A DNA stretch of 64,000 nucleotides, taken from contig SCKK01000001.1 in NCBI GenBank assembly GCA_004124475.1, positions 124,001 to 188,000 on the forward strand, given 5' to 3'. Position 1 is the first letter of the stretch. Every line of letters starts with the position of its first letter. The notes beneath the pieces are model-generated. The model was not told the DNA's origin. It did no database searches and was given only the letters and a program-made list of their open reading frames with translations. Below are positions 2,083 through 43,707 of the stretch, one piece after another. Both the position numbers and the translations under genes were made by a program. This DNA comes from Fidelibacterota bacterium (GTDB taxonomy: Bacteria; Fidelibacterota; Marinisomatia; Marinisomatales; SCKK01).

Positions 2083-2952
2083 TTGCATTCTTCGAAAACT
2101 GATTTTATTTCCTGTGCAAAGATAAACCTCGGGCTGAAAATTATAAGCCAACGGCCAGATGGTTATCACACCATTGAAACTTTATTTCAGGAAATTTCAT
2201 TGGCTGATACTATTGAACTTGATAAAGCGTTGGAAGGCTGGCAGTTTTCCTGTGATAACAGTGACATACCTATCGATGAATCCAATTTGTGTGTACAAGC
2301 TTATCTGGAATTAAAAGTACGATTTCCGGATTTGGGTGGTATCAGAATTCATCTAAAAAAACGTGTTCCCATTGGCGCTGGGTTAGGAGGCGGGGCCAGC
2401 AACGCTGCCACAGTTTTGAAAGGAATGAATAAATTATATGGATTGAATCTTTCCAATAAGCGATTGGAGGAGATCGCTCACTCCATTGGAGCAGACGTCC
2501 CGTTTTTTATTCGGGGAGAGACCCAATTGGCTTCAGGAATTGGGGAAGTACTGTCTCCTGTCACCACACCACCGATGGGAGCTATTTTACTTGTAACACC
2601 CCCCATTCAAATAGACACGGAGTGGGCATACAGGGAGGTTAAAAATCACTTGTCTGATTACAGTCGTAAAGGTAAGTTTGCCGCCGCTTATGAGAAGGTA
2701 GATTTTTCGTTACCTTTCTTATGGCACAAAGTCGAAAAGCTTTTTGAGAATGACTTTGAACCTCTGGTGTTTCAAACATATCCAGAGATTGGCAGAACGA
2801 AGGATCGATTGTTGGAGAACGGAGCAGAATTTGCCAGTCTGTCGGGTAGTGGCTCGACTGTGTTTGGTATCTACAAGGAAGAAAGAGATGCCCATAGAGT
2901 AACAGATTTTTTTCCTCCTCCCTTCCAAACATTTATAGCCCATCCGATTTAA
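2083..2952 (+). CDS. ispE: 4-(cytidine 5'-diphospho)-2-C-methyl-D-erythritol kinase
   Basis: IspE is a GHMP-family kinase that phosphorylates CDP-methylerythritol with ATP, the fourth MEP step. The GHMP ATP-binding loop PIGAGLGGGASNAA is intact around residues 97-110. The N-terminal AKINLGLKI and C-terminal LSGSGSTVFG motifs are present, and 289 residues is normal. The start appears to be TTG at 2083; no in-frame ATG lies near the conserved N-terminus, and the gene begins 10 bases after the ispF stop, which suggests translational coupling. The biochemical order would be D, E, F, whereas the gene order here is D, F, E. Confidence 0.94.
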   Translation: MHSSKTDFISCAKINLGLKIISQRPDGYHTIETLFQEISLADTIELDKALEGWQFSCDNSDIPIDESNLCVQAYLELKVRFPDLGGIRIHLKKRVPIGAGLGGGASNAATVLKGMNKLYGLNLSNKRLEEIAHSIGADVPFFIRGETQLASGIGEVLSPVTTPPMGAILLVTPPIQIDTEWAYREVKNHLSDYSRKGKFAAAYEKVDFSLPFLWHKVEKLFENDFEPLVFQTYPEIGRTKDRLLENGAEFASLSGSGSTVFGIYKEERDAHRVTDFFPPPFQTFIAHPI

Positions 2953-3049
2953 TTGACTATTTTCGATTGAGTTTTGTAAATCTTTTACAGATGTTATGAA
3001 TTAGCTTGAATTAAAGTGTCAATCGAAAATCAAAAATAATAATTGTATT

Positions 3050-3122
3050 TGGGATGTGGTCTAATTGGCAAGGCACCGGACTGTTAATCCGGAAAATGGG
3101 GGTTCGAATCCCTCCGTCCCAG
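3050..3122 (+). tRNA. tRNA-Asn (GTT)
   Basis: A cloverleaf can be drawn. The acceptor stem is TGGGATG paired with CGTCCCA (one G-U pair). The anticodon stem is CCGGA/TCCGG around the loop CTGTTAA (anticodon GTT). The T arm is GGGGG-TTCGAAT-CCCTC and the discriminator is G. No CCA is encoded. It sits in the gap between ispE and prs, about 110 bases before a second tRNA. Confidence 0.93.
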
Positions 3123-3234
3123 CGATATACATTGTGGAATTCAGATTGCGGATTTCGGAAGGAGAGATAGCATAAAAATATGTTCGTGCTTCGCTACAAG
3201 ATGAGAGCTAAGAATCCGCAATCCACAATTGATT

Positions 3235-12005: not shown

Positions 12006-12266
12006 ATTTCTCACCTTTGTAATCCAAGTTGTGGTTATGTTACTGTATCGCCTGCCCGCCCTCCGGCAGACGGGCCGTCAAGCAGGCCTGTCTGTCGACA
12101 GGCAGGGAATTTCTCAATCCCGACGCGTCGGGACGAAGGTTACAATAGACTCCCTTGGAGACTCCCGAAGCTTCCGGACTTAGCCTTTTTAAGAAATTCG
12201 CTCCATAGGAACTCCTCTGGGACGTAGCTATGTTCTTAAACTAGAAAAGAAGAAAGCAGTGATATT
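12006..12266. repeat. GC-rich palindromic intergenic repeats
   Basis: No gene is seen. The stretch is packed with inverted repeats: CCTGCCCGCC/GGCAGACGGG-type and CTGTCTGTCGACAGGCAG around 12048-12113, then the 16-bp palindrome TCCCGACGCGTCGGGA at 12118-12133. The 36 bases at 12117-12152 recur with two mismatches at 35521-35556. Similar elements recur at 21866, 27541, 29655, 41356, 45330 and 50612. Confidence 0.7.
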
Positions 12267-17440: not shown

Positions 17441-18187
17441 ATGGTAAAACATGTAATGATGTGGTTATTGCCCCTGTTTATCACCGCTCAAACAGGTGAA
17501 GAAATAGCCAAATTGGTGGACGAGCGTAAAACCCCAAAAGATATGATAGTTGATCTCACGATGGTATTAACGAATAAGAAGGGGAAAACTCGTTCATCCG
17601 TCCTTCATTCTGTGTCAAAGGATGGAGGTAAAAAACAGATGATTTGGTTTCTTTCTCCAAAGGACGATAAAGGTGTCGCTTTTTTAAAGATTGAACACAC
17701 GGGGAAAGACGATGAGATGCGATTGTGGCTCCCGGCTTTTAAGAAAGTTCGACGTATTGTATCCAAACAAAAAGGAGATTCTTTTATGGGATCTGACTTG
17801 AGTTATGAAGACATGACCAATCGAGAACTGGATGAATACTCTTATAAACTTTTAGGACAGGAAGAGATTCAAAACCAGGACTGCTATATTTTAGAATCGA
17901 TACCCAAACAGGAAGTGAAATCCACCTACAGCAGGCACGTAACCTGGGTAACGAAGAAAGATTATAATATAGTAAAAGAAGAATCGTATGATAGAACAGG
18001 AAGACTTTTTAAAACAAAATTGTTCAAACAACAGAATATCAAAAATTACACAGTCCTTAAAGAGATTTTCGTAGAGAATGTGATAAAACGACATTCCACT
18101 CTACTTATATTTGATAATATAGAGGTGGATACAGGTATTGAGGATAGCCAGTTCCAGGAGAAGTATTTAAAGCGTTTACCTAAATAG
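17441..18187 (+). CDS. Outer-membrane lipoprotein-sorting-like (LolA-fold) periplasmic protein
   Basis: A 248-residue secreted protein with a short signal peptide (MWLLPLFITAQTGEEI) and a LolA/LolB-like half-barrel of the TP_0789 type. Typical segments are KKQMIWFLSPKDDKGVAFL, LWLPAFKKVRRI and GSDLSYEDM. Proteins of this kind accompany RND/MMPL exporters and carry a hydrophobic ligand across the periplasm. It starts 12 bases after the RND gene. Its TAG stop touches the left end of the repeat element at 18187-18329. Confidence 0.8.
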   Translation: MVKHVMMWLLPLFITAQTGEEIAKLVDERKTPKDMIVDLTMVLTNKKGKTRSSVLHSVSKDGGKKQMIWFLSPKDDKGVAFLKIEHTGKDDEMRLWLPAFKKVRRIVSKQKGDSFMGSDLSYEDMTNRELDEYSYKLLGQEEIQNQDCYILESIPKQEVKSTYSRHVTWVTKKDYNIVKEESYDRTGRLFKTKLFKQQNIKNYTVLKEIFVENVIKRHSTLLIFDNIEVDTGIEDSQFQEKYLKRLPK

Positions 18188-18329
18188 AGCTTGACCGAAA
18201 AACAAAAAACCAGATGAAGAAAGATGTCATCTTTTGGATTGAATGTAGATAAGATCTTCGTCGAACAATAGGAAAATTGTCGGTAAAGATGACATCTTTT
18301 TCTAAACTGGACTTTTCGTTCAGACACTA
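18187..18329. repeat. Dispersed ~145-bp element, copy A, with core inverted relative to copy B
   Basis: Two exact inverted 15-mers, AAAGATGTCATCTTT (18220-18234) and AAAGATGACATCTTT (18285-18299), enclose a 50-base core (18235-18284). The left arm (GACCGAAAAACAAAAAACC) and right arm (ACTTTTCGTTCAGACACTA) match the arms of copy B (35695-35840) in reverse complement. The core matches copy B on the same strand at 40 of 50 positions. It lies between the LolA-like gene and the cupin gene and may also act as a transcription barrier. Confidence 0.85.
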
Positions 18330-18541
18330 AATAAAACCAATGGTCTCCAAAACCGCTTATACAGGTTCTATGCCCACCGAAAGCACGCAAGCGGGGAATC
18401 TCATCCGCTCCACAACTTTAACATAACTTAAATCTTGACAATGAAAACATTCAGCCTACTACAAAGGATCGGGATCGGCGGGCGGGGCAGGCACGTTTCA
18501 CGTTTTCAGTATTTTGAACAGAGCTATTGGAAAGGAACAAT
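18330..18541. other. Gene-free spacer before the cupin gene
   Basis: No gene is seen. It contains a GC-rich piece near 18468-18495 (GGATCGGGATCGGCGGGCGG) resembling the dispersed palindromes, and a purine-rich GAAAGGA ribosome-binding site before 18542. Confidence 0.4.
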
Positions 18542-32077: not shown

Positions 32078-32545
32078 TTATGGTATTGGGACATTTTCGA
32101 GCAATTTTTCAATGTTGGTGTTATATTCCTTATACGGATCACTTACCTGATAATTTCGTTGTCTTGGGATTATTGTGAGTAAGAGACGAATGATTTGGCT
32201 AAGCAAACTTATTCGGTGATTTGCAGTTTCAGTACCTTGGATATGTCTTCCCTTATAATACCAATCCCTGCTTTCCCTCGCCGATCCCAGTGCGTATTCG
32301 TAGAAGCGAGCTTGATCTCTTCCTGAACTCCGTGAATATCCTTCGACTATATTTGCACTAATGGAACCCAGTGACCTATAGAGTTGATCTGATAATTTGA
32401 GGGTTCTTTTGTCTTTTACTAACTTTGAGACATCGAACCAACCCAGGTCCGAGACAAAAAGACTTAGTCTATATACTTTCATATTCCATAGTGGGTCATT
32501 AGTTATCTCAATTGGAATTGTTATTAACCACTCATCGAAGTTCAT
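32078..32545 (-). CDS. Four-helix-bundle protein (23S rRNA intervening-sequence protein family)
   Basis: The 155 residues match the small four-helix-bundle family first seen in 23S rRNA intervening sequences: VYRLSLFVSDLGW, LSDQLYRSLGSISANIVEGY and ARFYEYALGSARESRDW. The function is unknown. AAGGAGAG precedes the ATG by six bases. The gene lies between pncA and pncB, which otherwise would be neighbours, and it is bordered by similar inverted repeats (32029-32057, 32561-32597), as if it had moved in as a cassette. Confidence 0.88.
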   Translation of the reverse strand: MNFDEWLITIPIEITNDPLWNMKVYRLSLFVSDLGWFDVSKLVKDKRTLKLSDQLYRSLGSISANIVEGYSRSSGRDQARFYEYALGSARESRDWYYKGRHIQGTETANHRISLLSQIIRLLLTIIPRQRNYQVSDPYKEYNTNIEKLLENVPIP

Positions 32546-35556: not shown

Positions 35557-35694
35557 TACGTGGGAGTCCTTCATGACCCTTGGATAGTCCCTGTCCCAAA
35601 GGGATCCCTATGGGACGGGACAGGCAGCTTTTTGGTTATCCACAGGATTCGTCAGCTGCCCTGTTAGATAATGTGGAAGAAGGAATATCCTATA

Positions 35695-35840
35695 TAGTGT
35701 CTGAACGAAAAGTTCGATTCAAGAAAAAGATGTCATCTTTTAGTTTGAATGTTCGTAAGATCTTCGCCGAACAATTGAAAAATTGGCGATAAAGATGACA
35801 TCTTTCTTCATTCGGTTTTTTGTTTTTCGGTCAAGCACTA
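35695..35840. repeat. Dispersed ~145-bp element, copy B
   Basis: The 15-mers AAAGATGTCATCTTT (35726-35740) and AAAGATGACATCTTT (35791-35805) enclose a 50-base core (35741-35790). The arms match copy A (18187-18329) in reverse complement, while the core matches copy A on the same strand. Relative to the arms, the core is therefore inverted between the copies. Confidence 0.85.
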
Positions 35841-36241
35841 TATATCAATCGCTTAGCAGAAAATGGGGCAATAATGGGGCGAAAATTCACGATGAAATAC
35901 TTTGAATTTGAACCTTTGACTGCCGCCTTGTAAGGGCGGTTTCCCCTCGTCGTGAAGAATAGGTTTGGTGATTGTAAGGTGTCTATTTTGCCCTCAAAAA
36001 TTAGTATAAATACAGTTGACCCTTTCCCTTATTTTGGATGTGATCAACAATTAAATTAAAACCTCACACCTCATTTGATTTGTGGGATTTTTTGAAATAA
36101 CTACATAGCAACGTGGGGGGGGTAACTCCCTCCTGGGGTATGGTAGTATTTATCAATATACACGGTTAATATTATTTCAGCTAAAAGGGGTTGCTCTATC
36201 ACTCATGAAATACTGTATCTTTCTAATGACACAGTGAAAGT

Positions 36242-39200
36242 TTATTGGTTGAGATCATAGATGTACTGGTACACCACATCACACTTCTGAAAATACATAT
36301 CATCGGAGTAAGGTGGATGGAGAATATCGAGCATTTCCGCAATGGAGAGTTTTACACCAGCTCTGGCTTGCTGTTTTGTCTGCCAATCGAGCGCCATCTT
36401 TTCTGTTTTTAGAGTCTGAAGTAATTGTCTGGCTATCGCCTTAGCCTTCTTCTGTTCTTTGCCATTGAGGTCTAAGTCAGGTTTTGTCAGGAGATCAAAC
36501 ACGGCCAGCTCCTCTTCGTTCTCCAGTTCTTCTCGAATATAGCGTCTTTCCTCTTCCCTCAGTTCCTGACTGAGATTTACCAGTTTTTCGAAAACATCAT
36601 CAAGACTCACAGCAGGGTGATTGTACTCATTGATGATTTCCTGGAGTTGCTCCTTGAAGTTCATCCGGATCTGGTTCACCTGTATCATTACACTCAGTTT
36701 TCTTTCAATGGTCTTTCTCAATTGCTCAATCTGGATCCGCTTTTTACCTTTATGGTATCTACTCTTGAGCTGTTCAAAATCAACAGTGGAAAGATCATAT
36801 TGCTGCCAGCCACCTTTTGGTTCTCTAATCTCAAACCCCTTTACTGACTTGTCCAAGACAGCTTCTACTTGCTGCATTACATCTGATACATCAGGCTTCG
36901 GATCAAGAGACCTGATATGCTTGACAAGCTTGCGAATAATGTACGCTGTCTCACCCAGTTCCGGCTCTATAGGATCAGGCAAATATGCTCTGTAAACCCT
37001 CCTTATAGTCTCGGCTTTTTGAAGAAACTTCTTTTTGGTATCATCATTGACCAATATTCGGTTAACTGCCTCATCCTTTAGCGCAGTCCGTTCGAACACA
37101 TCTCTCTCCCTGCGGATGACTTCCAAATCAACCTTCAATGGTTTCAGGAACTCCCTGATTTCATCAATGGCCATTATCAGTTGGGACTTAAGCTCATCCT
37201 TATTCTTGATGATGGGTTCCGTATCCCCTCTACCCGAACCCCACACTGCCAGCGCCTTCTCAAGATTCCTGAAGATACCCACATAATCAACGATGATCCC
37301 ATTCTCCTTATCCTCGAACACCCTGTTTGCCCTGGCAATGGTCTGCATTAAAGTGTGGTTCCGCATCGGCTTGTCCAGATAGATGGATGAACAGCAGGGA
37401 ACATCAAAACCTGTCATCCACATCGCACATACAAAAACCAGCCTGAACGGGTCCTGAGGATCCTTGAATTTTACATCCAAGTCTTCTTTAACGATTCTTT
37501 TCCGATGAGGACGAATATCCACACCCTTATTGCGCATGTCATCCACTTCATTCTGGCTGGAGGATACCACCACAGCCATATCCGTTTCTTCCATAAACTC
37601 GATCTGATCCAATAGGACTTTCAGGTCATTCTCCTCAGCAAATGGTATCTGCTCTTTCAAGTCATTAATGGTCTTTTGCCAATGAGCTTGTACCCTGTTA
37701 TACATCTTGACGGCAGTCGCCTTGTCTATAGTCACATACATCGCCTTACCTCGGTAACCTCGATTCACAAAGTGGTACACAATATCTTCAGCGATTTTTT
37801 CCAGACGGTCATCCCGGGTAATGACCTGATACATACGACTAAACTCACGCTCCAACTTCTTCTCCTGATCGGGGTTAAGGATTGCCTCATCAACAATGCG
37901 GATCATTTCAGGGTTCAGACATTCTTCCCCGTACGCCGTAAGCTGAACTTCAGGAAGCCGATTTTCATAGTAGAGTGGCACGGTGGCCTTGTCATCCACT
38001 GCCTCTTTAAAGTCATAAACGCTCACATAGTCCCCGAACACCTCACGGGTTTTCTCTTCCTCACCCTTTATGAGCGGCGTACCTGTAAAGCCGAGAAATG
38101 CTGCTTTCGGTAATGCATCCCGCATATTCTGTGCAAGAACATCATACTGGCTGCGGTGAGCTTCATCAGTTATTACAATGACGTCATCCCGTTCAGACAG
38201 CACAGGATGTTTCGCACCGTCCTCAGTCTGGAATTTGTGAATGAGGGTGAAAACAAAACGATGATCCTCCCTCAGAAGCTGCCGTAAATGTTTGATGCTC
38301 CTGGCGTGAATCTTCTGCTTGGCTGATATAATGCCAGCGTGTGCAAACTTCTCATAAATCTGCTGATCAAGTTCATTCCTGTCGGTTACAATCACGAATG
38401 TCCAATTTCCTGGAAGTTTCCGCAGAACTTTCTGACTGAAGCACATCATCGAAAAGCTCTTGCCGGTCCCCTGAGTATGCCAAAATACCCCCAAGCGTCT
38501 CGCACCCTCACCCTCATCCTGTGTCGCACCCTCAACCTGTGTCCTTCTCCCACGGGGAGAAGGATCATAATTCGCTATTTTAGCAATTGTTTTCAGTACG
38601 GACTCAGTTTCCTCTAAAATTTCTTTATTTGAAAATCGTAATATTTTGAAACCTACAGTTTTTAGCTGGTTATCACGAAATTCATCTTTTTCTTTTTGAT
38701 CCTTTTGATCATGTATTTTTCCATCACATTCAATAATCAGTTTCAAACTGTGACAATAAAAATCAACGATATAGTTCAGAATCTGATGCTGACGACGGAA
38801 TTTTAGGTTAAGAAACTGGCGATTTCTCAGTATTGCCCATAGAAGTTCTTCTGCTTTTGTATGTTTCTTTCTTAGTTGACGTGCAGTTTCAGTTAAGCCA
38901 GCAAATTCAAACCCACCACGATAATGTACTTTGTTCTCCTTCTCCTCTGATGAGAAGGCAGGGTTGAGGTTCCTCTCCCCTTGGGAAGGGACAGAGGCGA
39001 ACTTATTCTTCCTCTCCCCCTGGGAGAGTTCAGGGGTGATTTCGTTCTTCCTCTCCTCTTGAGAGAGGACCGAGGTGAAATTGTTCTTCCTCTCCCCTTG
39101 AGAGAGGACAGAGGTGAAATTGTTCTTCCTCTCCCTCTGGGAGAGGACAGAGGTGAGGGATGCAATTGCATTATTCACCCCAAGATACTGATGGTTCTTC

Positions 39201-40030
39201 GCAATCTGTTTGATAAGGGGACCGTGTTCGGTGGTAAACAATACAAAGTTCTCCAGTATATCCAGAATACGATCCTTGGGACAGATGGCACGAATGAGTG
39301 TTTCCAGGTCTACGCGCCCTTCCTCTCCTTCATCGTTGATTTTTTTCCAGTCAGAGAAGTGCTCCCATTCGGCTGTGAGACTCCCCGCCTTTGCTTCACG
39401 GGCATTGGACAAGAGAATGATTCCGTTATGCCAGAGCAGGTTGGGTATGGTGTCTTTGTAATCCCGCAGGTTGTCGTTATAAGCGTGGTGAAGCCCCACG
39501 GATGGTTCCTTCAGTTCCATAAGGAGTAAAGGAATACCATTGATGAACCCCACCAAGTCCGGACGCTTCCTGTACATTGAACCCTTGACCCAAAACTGGC
39601 TTACCAGCAGGAAATGATTCTGCTCGGGGTTCTCCCAGTCTATGACTTTGACCCGTTCGGTCTGTTCGTTACCGTCCTCATTACGATAGGTGACAGGAAT
39701 GCCGTTCTTGAGGTATCCGTAAACTTCCCTGTTAGCTCCCACAAGGCTCATGGCGGAGCGATCTGCCCTAAGAATTTCAACAGCCTGATTGAGTACATTA
39801 TCGTTCAGATCTGGGTTCAGTTGCTTAAGGGAATAGACAAGATAGCGTGTGAGAACAATTTCTGTCTGTTCAGTACGCCCGAGGAAAGAAGGATCACCTT
39901 CAATCTCATATTCAGCATAGATGATTTCCCAACCCAGCTCTTCGAAGACGAGCATGGATTGGAGTTCTACTGCTTCTTCGGAATCGGGATTGGCGGCTTC
40001 GATCCTGGCTAATATCTTATCTCGGGTCAA
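36242..40030 (-). CDS. hsdR: Type I restriction enzyme R subunit with in-frame DUF559-like nuclease insertion
   Basis: HsdR is the motor and nuclease subunit of a type I restriction system. The 1262 residues contain the N-terminal PD-(D/E)xK nuclease (RPDLVGFINGIPLLLMELK, ~157-175), Walker A HTQGTGKS (~518-525), DEAH in ITDEAHRSQ, SF2 motif III FTGTPL, motif VI IARANRVF, and a C-terminal coiled region. Unusually, about 220 residues (~291-510) are inserted between nuclease and helicase domains: five 13-residue repeats, then a DUF559-like nuclease (LRNRQFLNLKFRRQH, YIVDFYC, IIECDGKIH). The frame stays open. The ATG overlaps the hsdS stop by four bases. Confidence 0.92.
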   Translation of the reverse strand: MTRDKILARIEAANPDSEEAVELQSMLVFEELGWEIIYAEYEIEGDPSFLGRTEQTEIVLTRYLVYSLKQLNPDLNDNVLNQAVEILRADRSAMSLVGANREVYGYLKNGIPVTYRNEDGNEQTERVKVIDWENPEQNHFLLVSQFWVKGSMYRKRPDLVGFINGIPLLLMELKEPSVGLHHAYNDNLRDYKDTIPNLLWHNGIILLSNAREAKAGSLTAEWEHFSDWKKINDEGEEGRVDLETLIRAICPKDRILDILENFVLFTTEHGPLIKQIAKNHQYLGVNNAIASLTSVLSQRERKNNFTSVLSQGERKNNFTSVLSQEERKNEITPELSQGERKNKFASVPSQGERNLNPAFSSEEKENKVHYRGGFEFAGLTETARQLRKKHTKAEELLWAILRNRQFLNLKFRRQHQILNYIVDFYCHSLKLIIECDGKIHDQKDQKEKDEFRDNQLKTVGFKILRFSNKEILEETESVLKTIAKIANYDPSPRGRRTQVEGATQDEGEGARRLGVFWHTQGTGKSFSMMCFSQKVLRKLPGNWTFVIVTDRNELDQQIYEKFAHAGIISAKQKIHARSIKHLRQLLREDHRFVFTLIHKFQTEDGAKHPVLSERDDVIVITDEAHRSQYDVLAQNMRDALPKAAFLGFTGTPLIKGEEEKTREVFGDYVSVYDFKEAVDDKATVPLYYENRLPEVQLTAYGEECLNPEMIRIVDEAILNPDQEKKLEREFSRMYQVITRDDRLEKIAEDIVYHFVNRGYRGKAMYVTIDKATAVKMYNRVQAHWQKTINDLKEQIPFAEENDLKVLLDQIEFMEETDMAVVVSSSQNEVDDMRNKGVDIRPHRKRIVKEDLDVKFKDPQDPFRLVFVCAMWMTGFDVPCCSSIYLDKPMRNHTLMQTIARANRVFEDKENGIIVDYVGIFRNLEKALAVWGSGRGDTEPIIKNKDELKSQLIMAIDEIREFLKPLKVDLEVIRRERDVFERTALKDEAVNRILVNDDTKKKFLQKAETIRRVYRAYLPDPIEPELGETAYIIRKLVKHIRSLDPKPDVSDVMQQVEAVLDKSVKGFEIREPKGGWQQYDLSTVDFEQLKSRYHKGKKRIQIEQLRKTIERKLSVMIQVNQIRMNFKEQLQEIINEYNHPAVSLDDVFEKLVNLSQELREEERRYIREELENEEELAVFDLLTKPDLDLNGKEQKKAKAIARQLLQTLKTEKMALDWQTKQQARAGVKLSIAEMLDILHPPYSDDMYFQKCDVVYQYIYDLNQ
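38501..39160 (-). mobile_element. DUF559 nuclease plus palindromic repeats inserted in hsdR
   Basis: The inserted block separates NHQYLGVNNAIAS from RRLGVFWHTQGTGKS, which are almost adjacent in ordinary HsdR. One side is a 39-base tandem array (38957-39151). The other is the palindrome CCTTCTCC-CACG-GGGAGAAGG (38543-38563) with repeated CACCCTCA words. Between them is a complete DUF559-like domain (about residues 375-485). Free-standing DUF559 genes are often bordered by such CTCTCCC/GGGAGAG repeats, so this looks like that unit landed in frame. Confidence 0.7.
38957..39151 (-). repeat. 39-bp coding tandem repeat, about five units
   Basis: Units encode SVLSQGERKNNFT with small changes (residues ~294-358 of HsdR). 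Each unit carries a CCTCTCCCC-TTGA-GAGAGG dyad. The period of 39 keeps the reading frame. Confidence 0.85.
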
Positions 40031-41319
40031 GATTCAGCTCCGATATCTATATCCAGTTCTGATACATCCACCTTACCTGAAATGAGCTTGGGTAGTAATA
40101 AGTCTCGGCTTTGGCGAAGAGTATTGTTTTGATAATCTAATAATATGATTTCATTAATTAATGGATTGCAAAGGGTTTCAAATTCTCCAATCAATTCAAT
40201 TCGTGGTAAAATTATCTTTATATTACCAATATCTTGACCACTGATGTTTGGCTGTGCTGCACCTTGTGCAACATTATAAATGGTCGTTTGAAACTCTACA
40301 GATTTTGTAATCTGATAAATGAACTGATTAGTTGTATTGAAGCCATAAATAGGAAAAAACTTTCCAACCCGTTGATTAAGCAGATATTCGCCCTTTGCTT
40401 TTAGCATAATGCCAACTTTTCCAACTTGTGCTCCAGTCATTGCAATTAGCAAATCCCCAATACTTAATTTAAAATTCCATGCTCTTTGATCAACGGTCTC
40501 ACGTGCAATGTATTGAATGTTATTTAAGTCAACGTAATTACTCTGGATATTTTTGATTTTTACAATTCCATAGTCTCCAGAATTATTCATGTTGTTACTT
40601 CTAAATGCAAAACCAGATTTGACAGTATACAAATCGGAAATATTTCCGATTTCCCACCCCTCTGGAATCATCCCCAATTCACTGTCCACCAGTTTATCAT
40701 TTTCGTGGCCCGGGTATTTGAAATCCACAAACCATTCTTTGTAGATACGTTGTGCCATTTCTTCCAAAATGGCAATGCGGCGTGTGTTGTTTTGAATCAG
40801 GTCGTCATAAGCAGAGAGGATGCCGGCGATTTTGCGTTGAGTTGGTAATGGGGGAAGTGGGACAGCTAAATTACATAATTCGCTTCCTCTAATACCTTTT
40901 ACATTGACACCTGTTGATATTGAAAGAATTGATCCCCGACCTTGGGGTGATTTAAAATAGTAATAATAAAATTTTGAATAGACTTTTGAATGGTCTAACC
41001 TGACTCTGATGATTGACGATTCAAATACAGTAAGCTCATTTGGATTTACTACTAATGAACATTTACCTGATCCTTCTTCAACAACTGATCTTCTTGCAAA
41101 TAGCAAGTCACCATCAATTATTGAATATTTCCCTTTTTCAATGTCCGTTAATTCAATCCTTTTCATTTTTTGGGAAGAAATAAAGTCATATCCAAAAAGC
41201 TCACCCATGTTTACTACTTTACAACCAGTCCCATGAAATTCTTTACTTTTATATATTCCATTTCTTGATGGGATTGAATAAACTGTATTAAACGAATCGG
41301 ATTCCCAGGTAGTATTCAT
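40027..41319 (-). CDS. hsdS: Type I restriction enzyme S (specificity) subunit
   Basis: HsdS sets the DNA target of the HsdM/HsdR complex. The 430 residues show two target-recognition domains. The first ends in the conserved region LAVPLPPLPTQRKIAGILSAYD and a long helix (NNTRRIAILEEMAQRIYKEW). The second starts at LGMIPEGWEIGNISDLY and ends in a second helix (LDYQNNTLRQSRDLLLPKL, then ISGKVDVSEL). Both halves appear complete. It overlaps hsdR by four bases (ATGA). Degenerate genes separate it from hsdM. Confidence 0.92.
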   Translation of the reverse strand: MNTTWESDSFNTVYSIPSRNGIYKSKEFHGTGCKVVNMGELFGYDFISSQKMKRIELTDIEKGKYSIIDGDLLFARRSVVEEGSGKCSLVVNPNELTVFESSIIRVRLDHSKVYSKFYYYYFKSPQGRGSILSISTGVNVKGIRGSELCNLAVPLPPLPTQRKIAGILSAYDDLIQNNTRRIAILEEMAQRIYKEWFVDFKYPGHENDKLVDSELGMIPEGWEIGNISDLYTVKSGFAFRSNNMNNSGDYGIVKIKNIQSNYVDLNNIQYIARETVDQRAWNFKLSIGDLLIAMTGAQVGKVGIMLKAKGEYLLNQRVGKFFPIYGFNTTNQFIYQITKSVEFQTTIYNVAQGAAQPNISGQDIGNIKIILPRIELIGEFETLCNPLINEIILLDYQNNTLRQSRDLLLPKLISGKVDVSELDIDIGAES

Positions 41320-41910: not shown

Positions 41911-42109
41911 CAGTTGACTTCTTGCTTAGTTCACTGGTCTTATAGATATTTCTAACATGTCTCGAAATAACTGATTTATCACGCTGGAACAGCATAGACA
42001 ACTCATTCAAGTTTAACCATAACGATTCCTCGACTAATTTGACATCCAGGTATGTTGTTCCATCCGGACTTTTGTAAATAATGATTTTACCTTTGTTCTG
42101 TTTATTCAT
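41888..42109 (-). pseudogene. Truncated RhuM-family (virulence RhuM-like) gene
   Basis: The 73 residues (KIIIYKSPDGTTYLDVKLVE, LWLNLNELSMLFQRDKSVIS, RHVRNIYK) match the N-terminal DNA-binding part of RhuM-like proteins, which are usually over 300 residues. The frame ends at a TAG in a CAACAGTTTA sequence where it runs into the AlbA_2 remnant, suggesting a deletion fused the two. Its ATG overlaps the hsdM stop (TAATG), so it was part of the hsd operon. Confidence 0.7.
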
Positions 42110-43707
42110 TATTTTAACGTTATTAGAGTTTGAACATTACTTGCAATTCTCTTTTCCAATTTTCTTGCTTCGCTGTTCAGAGATTCCAGTTCTTCATTCA
42201 ATTCTTTCAGCCGTACTTTAAAGTCCACACCGTCATCGTCGGCTTCAGCCACACCCACATATCGGCCTGGGTTCAGGCTCCAGCCCTGTGCTTCAATTTC
42301 TTCAATCGTGGCAACCTTGCATAAGCCTTTAATGTCCAGGTATCTCCCTTCAGGAAATTCTTTGCAGAAAAGTTCATACCCTTCGGAATCAACTCCAATA
42401 CTTTCTCCCCTGTATGCTCGAACGATATAGTGCAGAAAATCTATCTGATCATCGGTAAAGTCACGATGAGCACGGTCAATCTGGCGGTAAATACTCCGTG
42501 CATCAATAAAAAGGACAGTATCAGACCCACGCACTTCTGTTCTCCTTCCCCCAGTGGGGGAAGGCAGGGATGGGGGTAAGGCATGTTTGCCTTTATCAAA
42601 GAACCACAACGTCACAGGCAGGGTTACCGTATAGAAGAAGTTGGATGAGATGGCTACTATCACGTCTACATTGCCGCTCTCAATGAGCTTCTGGCGTATG
42701 TCAAGCTCACTCTAACGGGCATCAGCCGCAGAATTAGTCATCACAAAACCTGCCCTTCCTTTGTCATTCAAGGCAGAGTAAAAGTCCTGAATCCAAAGAT
42801 AATTGGCATTGTCCGCCCTGGGAATGCCCAACACATACCGTGGGTCATCCTTAATCCGTTCCTTATCCACGCCATTCACGTTAAAGGGGGGATTAGCCAT
42901 CACAAAGTCAAACCTCCCCAGACTGTTGTGTTGGTCTTCATAGTAGGTATTCCCTTGCTTTATTCCCTCGGTAGGTAGGCCGTGAACTGCCAGGTTCATC
43001 CTGCACAAGCGGACGGTATGGTCTTTGAATTCCTGTCCGAAGAGGGTCAATTCTTTGGTAGCCGAATGCTGGTGTTCTTCCACAAATCGTGCTGATTGAA
43101 TAAACATTCCTCCCGAGCCACAAGCAGGGTCGTAAATCCTGCCATGATAAGGCTCAATAATGTTTACAATGAGCCTGACGATGGAAGTGGGTGTATAGAA
43201 CTCTCCACCACCTCTACCTTCGGTCATGGCAAACTTGCCCAGGAAGTATTCATTAATCTTGCCAAAAACATCGCCTTCAATGTCCATTGAAATGCTATTG
43301 AAGATCTTTAATAATTCCACCAGCAATGGATTCTCAAGCCGCTGATATTCACGAGGCAGCACACCCCGAATGTCTTCATTCTCCCTCTCGATAGCCTCCA
43401 TTGCCTCATTAATGGCCTTCCCTATATCTGAACCTTCGGGGAGTTGTATCAGGTGGGAAAATCGAGCTTTCTCAGGAAGGTATAGGACACCCCTTGCTTG
43501 GTACTGTAATTTGACCAAGCTACCAGTGTCAGTGCCTTTTAGTCCCAGCTCTGTTTCTGCCAGGGAGAATCGGTAGTCGGCATATTTCAGAAAGATCAGG
43601 CCCAGGACGGGTCTTGAATATTCCTGTGCTGTAAGAGCTGAATTGGCTCTTAGCTGGTCTGCAGCTTCCCACAATCTTTTTTCAAGATTGTTATTGGGCG
43701 AAGGCAT
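42109..43707 (-). pseudogene. hsdM: Type I DNA methyltransferase subunit with internal amber codon and palindromic insert
   Basis: HsdM methylates adenine in the HsdS target. The N-terminal part is complete: [22 protein letters not shown] motif [16 protein letters not shown] and catalytic NPPFNVNG. At codon 332 a TAG (42712-42714) interrupts NSAADAR[14 protein letters not shown]. The frame resumes at once with [24 protein letters not shown] and the normal C-terminus. A ~20-residue proline/glycine insert ([19 protein letters not shown]) encoded by a palindrome lies between WFFDKGK and VLFIDAR. Unless the TAG is read through, the methylase is inactive. Confidence 0.88.
42540..42590 (-). repeat. 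Palindromic element encoded in frame in hsdM
   Basis: CCTTCCCC-CAGT-GGGGGAAGG (42544-42564) followed by GCAGGGATGGGGGTAAGGC. It is related to the palindrome beside the DUF559 insert in hsdR (38543-38563) and adds about 20 residues without breaking the frame. Confidence 0.7.

Follow-up and report, generated by a model that had tools for sequence, protein, structure and literature searches.

Copies A and B, two intergenic elements in the 64,000-nucleotide stretch of DNA analysed here (the window; C16:124001-188000 of genome G000), are insertions of one MITE family that is related to a resident ISNCY-family IS by its left terminus. Nested in each is an inverted pair of 15-mers which, judged by its sequence and by the genes that it accompanies in other genomes, is a REP doublet (REPIN type) of one RAYT clade. 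In copy B the 50-bp core between the two REPs is inverted relative to the arms. The most probable explanation, in which we place reasonable but not full confidence, is that the doublet forms a hairpin that causes rare inversion or deletion of the core by template switching or slippage.

Both copies had been reported by the initial annotation; their precise limits and parts are:

18182-18185, no strand: target duplication AAAT of copy A (from the sequence)
18186-18328, minus strand: copy A, a full-length MITE enclosing a REP doublet, its core oriented as in most copies; G001:C131:19518-19662 holds the ortholog, in the same flanks and the same orientation
18186-18219, minus strand: right arm of copy A, terminal sequence AGAGCTTGACCGAAAAAC (alignment)
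18220-18234, no strand: REP 15-mer AAAGATGTCATCTTT of copy A (15-mer search)
18235-18284, minus strand: 50-bp core of copy A, lying between the arms in the orientation of most copies (alignment)
18285-18299, no strand: REP 15-mer AAAGATGACATCTTT of copy A, the inverse of AAAGATGTCATCTTT (15-mer search)
18300-18328, minus strand: left arm of copy A, ending in TAGTGTCTGAACGAAAAGTCC, the end of the resident ISNCY-family IS
18329-18332, no strand: target duplication AAAT of copy A (from the sequence)
35692-35695, no strand: target duplication ATAT of copy B
35696-35839, plus strand: copy B, a full-length MITE enclosing a REP doublet, whose core is flipped with respect to the family; paralogous empty site at G000:C68:27846-27998
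35696-35725, plus strand: left arm of copy B (alignment)
35726-35740, no strand: REP 15-mer AAAGATGTCATCTTT of copy B (15-mer search)
35741-35790, plus strand: 50-bp core of copy B, lying between its arms the other way round than in 11 of 13 family copies
35791-35805, no strand: REP 15-mer AAAGATGACATCTTT (inverse) of copy B (15-mer search)
35806-35839, plus strand: right arm of copy B (alignment)
35840-35843, no strand: target duplication ATAT of copy B

G001 is the sister genome JADFPG ('Candidatus Neomarinimicrobiota bacterium B71T3L11'), the one sister species compared. The TAG stop codon of the ORF at 17441-18187 is completed by the first two bases of copy A. The two 15-mers are exact inverse complements of each other, and these four sites are the only ones in the window even when two mismatches are allowed (chance expectation 0.43).

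The arms of A and B match in reverse complement (scores 41 and 49, against 0 and 7 for the direct alignments), while the cores match in the same plus-strand orientation, with 40 of 50 positions identical and a score of 60, against -3 when one core is reverse-complemented. The weak palindrome within the core does not account for this, and the relative inversion is real. This agrees with the initial annotation, which had proposed that one core is flipped; the whole family shows that the flipped copy is B and not A. It had also held that a single fixed orientation in all other copies, together with a reverse-complement core alignment as good as the direct one, would speak against inversion. Most of the other copies do hold one orientation, but the reverse-complement alignment never equals the direct score. 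The initial annotation had overlooked that both copies arrived by transposition, as MITEs with target duplications, and that the 15-mers, by our reading of their distribution, are REPs belonging to a RAYT clade.

A complete copy begins with AGTG and ends with CACT; the 4-bp target duplications are AAAT, ATAT, AATT and ACTT. A paralogous site for copy B, on G000:C68, is unoccupied and reads CCTATATATCAA; the occupied site reads CCTATAT-element-ATATATCAA. The left terminus, TAGTGTCTGAACGAAAAGTCC, is common to the MITE and an intact resident IS of 1.85 kb (C17:9172-11019) that encodes a 495-aa transposase of the ISNCY family (NF033593, E=3.5e-121); the right termini of the two have diverged. The target duplications, the empty site and the terminus in common with the resident IS identify the element as a MITE. 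G000 and G001 together have 13 copies that retain the core and one or both arms in recognizable form, besides truncated and coreless ones, and a further member at C47:22172 has the same ends without the 15-mers. No similar DNA was found in phages, plasmids or viral contigs. Like ISNCY-family MITEs, the element is non-coding, intergenic and about 143 bp long, with the terminal sequence of a resident IS and short target duplications. It differs from them in holding a complete REP doublet with a conserved core, and in the small palindromes within some cores. One of these, the 20-bp CCTGYCTGYCGRCAGRCAGG, occupies one of two fixed positions in the cores of G000:C1:27403 and C22:6246 and of G001:C191, C137, C170 and C37. 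It is present in C170 and missing from the ortholog C8, and the window holds one exact copy of it at 12087-12106.

The 15-mer is a repeat in its own right. The pattern AAAGATGWCATCTTT has 17 sites in G000 and 22 in G001, but the remaining 128 genomes of the order have almost none; the reversed-pattern control gives near 0. When 84,980 species genomes were scanned, the other occurrences of the pair with this spacing were mainly in Ignavibacteriales MAGs. In that order the 15-mer is present in 53 of 164 genomes, with up to 44 exact sites in one genome. Most sites form inverted pairs, which are separated by loops of 3-5 or 20-22 bases and lie a few bases 3' of stop codons, often between convergent genes. 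Where neighbouring REP pairs are unmutated, 70 of 72 are exact inverse complements. The predicted fold of the REP-core-REP strand is better than that of 200 out of 200 shuffles (z about -4.2).

In Ignavibacteriales such pairs bracket genes of about 200 aa, one pair on either side. These genes are probable RAYTs, hit by the NCBI model 'REP-associated tyrosine transposase' with E of about 1e-17 to 1e-18, below the curated cut-off; a flanked gene scores 66 bits against NF047646 (cut-off 80) and 21.5 against Pfam Y1_Tnp (cut-off 23), and has a weak match to the TnpA-REP chain PDB 4er8 (E=1e-4). The HxH motif is present in these genes as NHFH. A search of 30 genomes found seven members of this RAYT clade, in six genomes, and all seven have 15-mers close on both sides. 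More distant RAYTs, in the same or other genomes and including those of G000, G001 and G130 (the Ignavibacteriales MAG PFVA), have different hairpins and lack the 15-mers, with the exception of one MITE-borne 15-mer pair near G169d. Their position 3' of genes and their presence on both sides of every one of the seven RAYTs lead us to identify the pairs, on comparative grounds, as REP doublets; an inverted doublet of this kind was termed a REPIN by Bertels and Rainey (PMC3116915). The 15-mers are not recombinase sites of the MITE. Clusters of 15-mers in G209 and G157 were considered as attachment sites of a cassette array, an idea that was dropped when the flanked genes were recognized as probable RAYTs. 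The location of the pairs would also suit plain transcription terminators; exact conservation of the 15-mer and its linkage to RAYTs favour REPs, beside which a role in termination may exist.

A RAYT of the cognate clade was not found in G000, G001 or G130, the three genomes with flipped cores. The only RAYT found in G000 (C3:63136-63648) has an in-frame stop codon and other REPs. Its counterpart in G001 (C113:1631-2155) has an open reading frame, and the hairpin of the two, CCGTCAGTGACC...GGGATCACTGACGG, is unlike the 15-mer. Elsewhere, in L237 (G177:C1:2824000-2842000), a tandem REP-doublet array with a 147-bp period (1482-1956 and 2893-3219) adjoins a RAYT gene and resembles BIME clusters.

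The system shares with REPIN/RAYT (TnpA-REP) systems a short palindromic extragenic unit, inverted doublets with a predicted hairpin fold and linkage to a RAYT (PMC3116915; PMC6006769). Complementary changes in the hairpin and REP singlets produced by loss of the middle are reported there too. In contrast, the REP described here is an AT-rich 15-bp near-palindrome, with no GTAG-type tetranucleotide foot adjoining the 15-mers, its copies number in the tens and not in the hundreds, the doublet is nested in MITEs, and the genome of the window yielded no cognate RAYT. The nearest described RAYT type is subclass 2.6 of the Bacteroidetes, which has atypical flanking structures (PMC6006769).

When copies in the relatives are sorted by core orientation, as the initial annotation had proposed, the flip recurs. 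Eleven of the 13 core-bearing copies of the first family are A-like, and the flipped ones are B and G001:C191 only. The core of C191 has a 20-bp palindrome in the same place as in unflipped copies such as C22, to which C191 is 98% identical over 87 bp; B lacks this palindrome. This suggests that the flips in B and C191 are independent, and on these sequences they were probably separate events. G001 has the left flank of copy B but not the element there, and G000 has nothing that corresponds to the C191 locus. At the orthologous loci A/G001:C131 and C8/G001:C170 one orientation is kept in both species, which argues against a fast switch. No locus was found in which the same outer flanks hold cores in opposite orientations, so inversion is deduced from paralogs.

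Two other kinds of change affect the same part of the element. Copies with a single REP between two arms are found in both MITE families. A coreless copy of the first family lies at G001:C37:570-650. G001:C144 and G000:C44 share their flanks, which enclose REP-core-REP in the former and one REP in the latter. Additionally, among the 11 pairs in which both REPs depart from the consensus, six are still exact complements; several of these share an ancestral variant (AGAGATG...), so that they represent fewer than six independent events.

The same REP pair is carried by a second MITE family. Over 20 copies in G130 belong to another MITE, whose ends, TAACTCATCTTACGCAAA, are dissimilar to those of the first family and whose REPs surround a 68-bp core. 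The 50-bp and 68-bp cores show no homology (z below 1.5). Among eight elements of this family from several genomes the REPs are the best conserved part, with a mean identity of 96%, compared with 67-69% for the arms and 65% for the cores (58% for shuffled cores). The core is flipped in one of 26 copies with arms, G130:C223, so the recurrence extends, independently, to an unrelated element family. This copy is at a contig end, and its REPs have one mismatch in 15 pairs, whereas those of A and B match at 15 of 15. G130 also has three coreless copies of the family. A search for an autonomous partner of this family, with its TAACTCATSTTACGCAA ends, in 14 stretches of G130 and G132 gave no candidate IS, only further MITE-like pairs and other reading frames. 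A possible further flip at G169:C1:224421 (L297) was discarded as its MITE arms are unrecognizable.

Inversion, deletion and complementary change are all expected if the REP pair forms a hairpin in single-stranded DNA. The ISNCY transposase would spread the MITE, with the REP doublet travelling as cargo. In single-stranded DNA the two REPs would pair into a predicted 15-bp stem, at which the polymerase may switch template or slip during replication. Template switching would occasionally invert the core, as in copy B, and could also make the two REPs match each other, while slippage between the near-palindromic REPs would delete the core and one REP. The sequences themselves show the MITE family with its target duplications and empty site, the link of REP and RAYT in relatives, and recurrent inversion and loss of the core; the enzymology of the inversion is inferred. 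Precedents exist: template switching at short inverted repeats in yeast inverts spacers and homogenizes arms (PMC8604942), and plastid loops between 18-bp inverted repeats, as in trnH-psbA, invert repeatedly (PMC2903610). In these small inversions, as here, a spacer between perfect short inverted repeats flips recurrently, in the present case apparently with no dedicated recombinase; the elements described here differ in being dispersed bacterial mobile elements with a loop of 50-68 bp.

The initial annotation had offered either an invertible segment or template switching at a cruciform. The second fits better, because flips are rare, orthologs have the same orientation, and core deletions and complementary double changes occur at the same sites. 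A working phase-variable switch, turned by a site-specific recombinase encoded elsewhere and controlling a neighbouring gene, is highly improbable. The core is bounded by perfect inverted repeats, copy B lies downstream of a type I restriction operon and, as in invertons, both orientations of a segment bounded by inverted repeats occur among different copies. The repeats, however, are dispersed REPs and not a unique site, the flipped copies are only two of 13 and one of 26, and the orthologous pairs A/C131 and C8/C170 stay in one orientation. Consistent with this, none of the 45 window ORFs scanned with Pfam encodes a recombinase, as had been noted. We give equally little credence to an artefact of assembly in a metagenome-assembled genome. 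Repeats and hairpins are error-prone and the G130 flip is at a contig end, but B lies within a 223-kb contig and C191 lies 23 kb into its contig, and for k-mers longer than 17 the junctions of arm, 15-mer and core require real reads.

Gene conversion or homologous exchange, in which the 80-bp REP-core-REP block of B was copied from a family member in the opposite orientation with the REPs as crossover ends, is a more serious alternative that we nevertheless think unlikely. The ends of the block are symmetric, so it could be pasted in either orientation, and homologous copies exist in both chromosomal orientations. The core of B is 96% identical over 80 bp to that of the unflipped copy C1_53, and among the intact left arms that of B diverges most, which suggests that core and arms could differ in history. 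Against this, the common tract is just 80 bp with 15-bp ends, and local inversion accounts for the deletions and complementary changes without a donor. It is very doubtful that the reversal is the work of a TnpA-REP-like enzyme, which would have cleaved the doublet in single-stranded form and rejoined or reinserted it the other way round. We know of no case of inversion by a RAYT, and in the flip carriers G000, G001 and G130 no RAYT of the cognate clade was found, their RAYTs having other REPs and that of G000 being interrupted by a stop codon. The 15-mer pairs do flank a RAYT clade, and TnpA-REP of Escherichia coli cleaves and recombines single-stranded REPs in vitro, but it recognizes the REP and not the inverted REP (PMC8266576).

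REPINs, MITEs and loop inversion between inverted repeats are already known. In the open-access papers searched we found no account of MITEs carrying a REP doublet, as seen here in two families unrelated in ends and core and with flipped cores. These two MITE families, unlike at their ends and non-homologous in their cores, have retained the doublet, and the genomes that carry them are labelled Neomarinimicrobiota and Ignavibacteriales. The spread of REPs and REPINs is still unsettled, and hitch-hiking on MITEs would be a second route. In the Ignavibacteriales MITEs the REPs, at 96% identity against the lower values of arms and cores, do not decay like passive cargo. A rather speculative reading, to which we attach a low probability, is that the doublet is kept in unrelated MITEs because it is useful to them: an IS transposase would move the composites as double-stranded DNA and a RAYT would process them in single-stranded form, leaving inversion and loss of the core as its footprints. 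Additionally, the hairpin-linked series of inversion, deletion and complementary change could be used to gauge the rate of recombinase-free spacer flips at short inverted repeats.

Finally, some features of the window lie outside the elements. The type I restriction operon downstream of which copy B lies comprises hsdR (36242-40030), hsdS (40027-41319) and hsdM (42109-43707), the last apparently split into frames 42109-42663 and 42712-43707. The surroundings of copy B (35674-35696 and 35840-35943) are themselves a repeat with a second copy at G000:C68:27846-27998, part of which is also present at the end of contig G001:C131. At 32078-32545 a gene for a 23S rRNA intervening-sequence-type protein (PF05635) lies amid ordinary genes.
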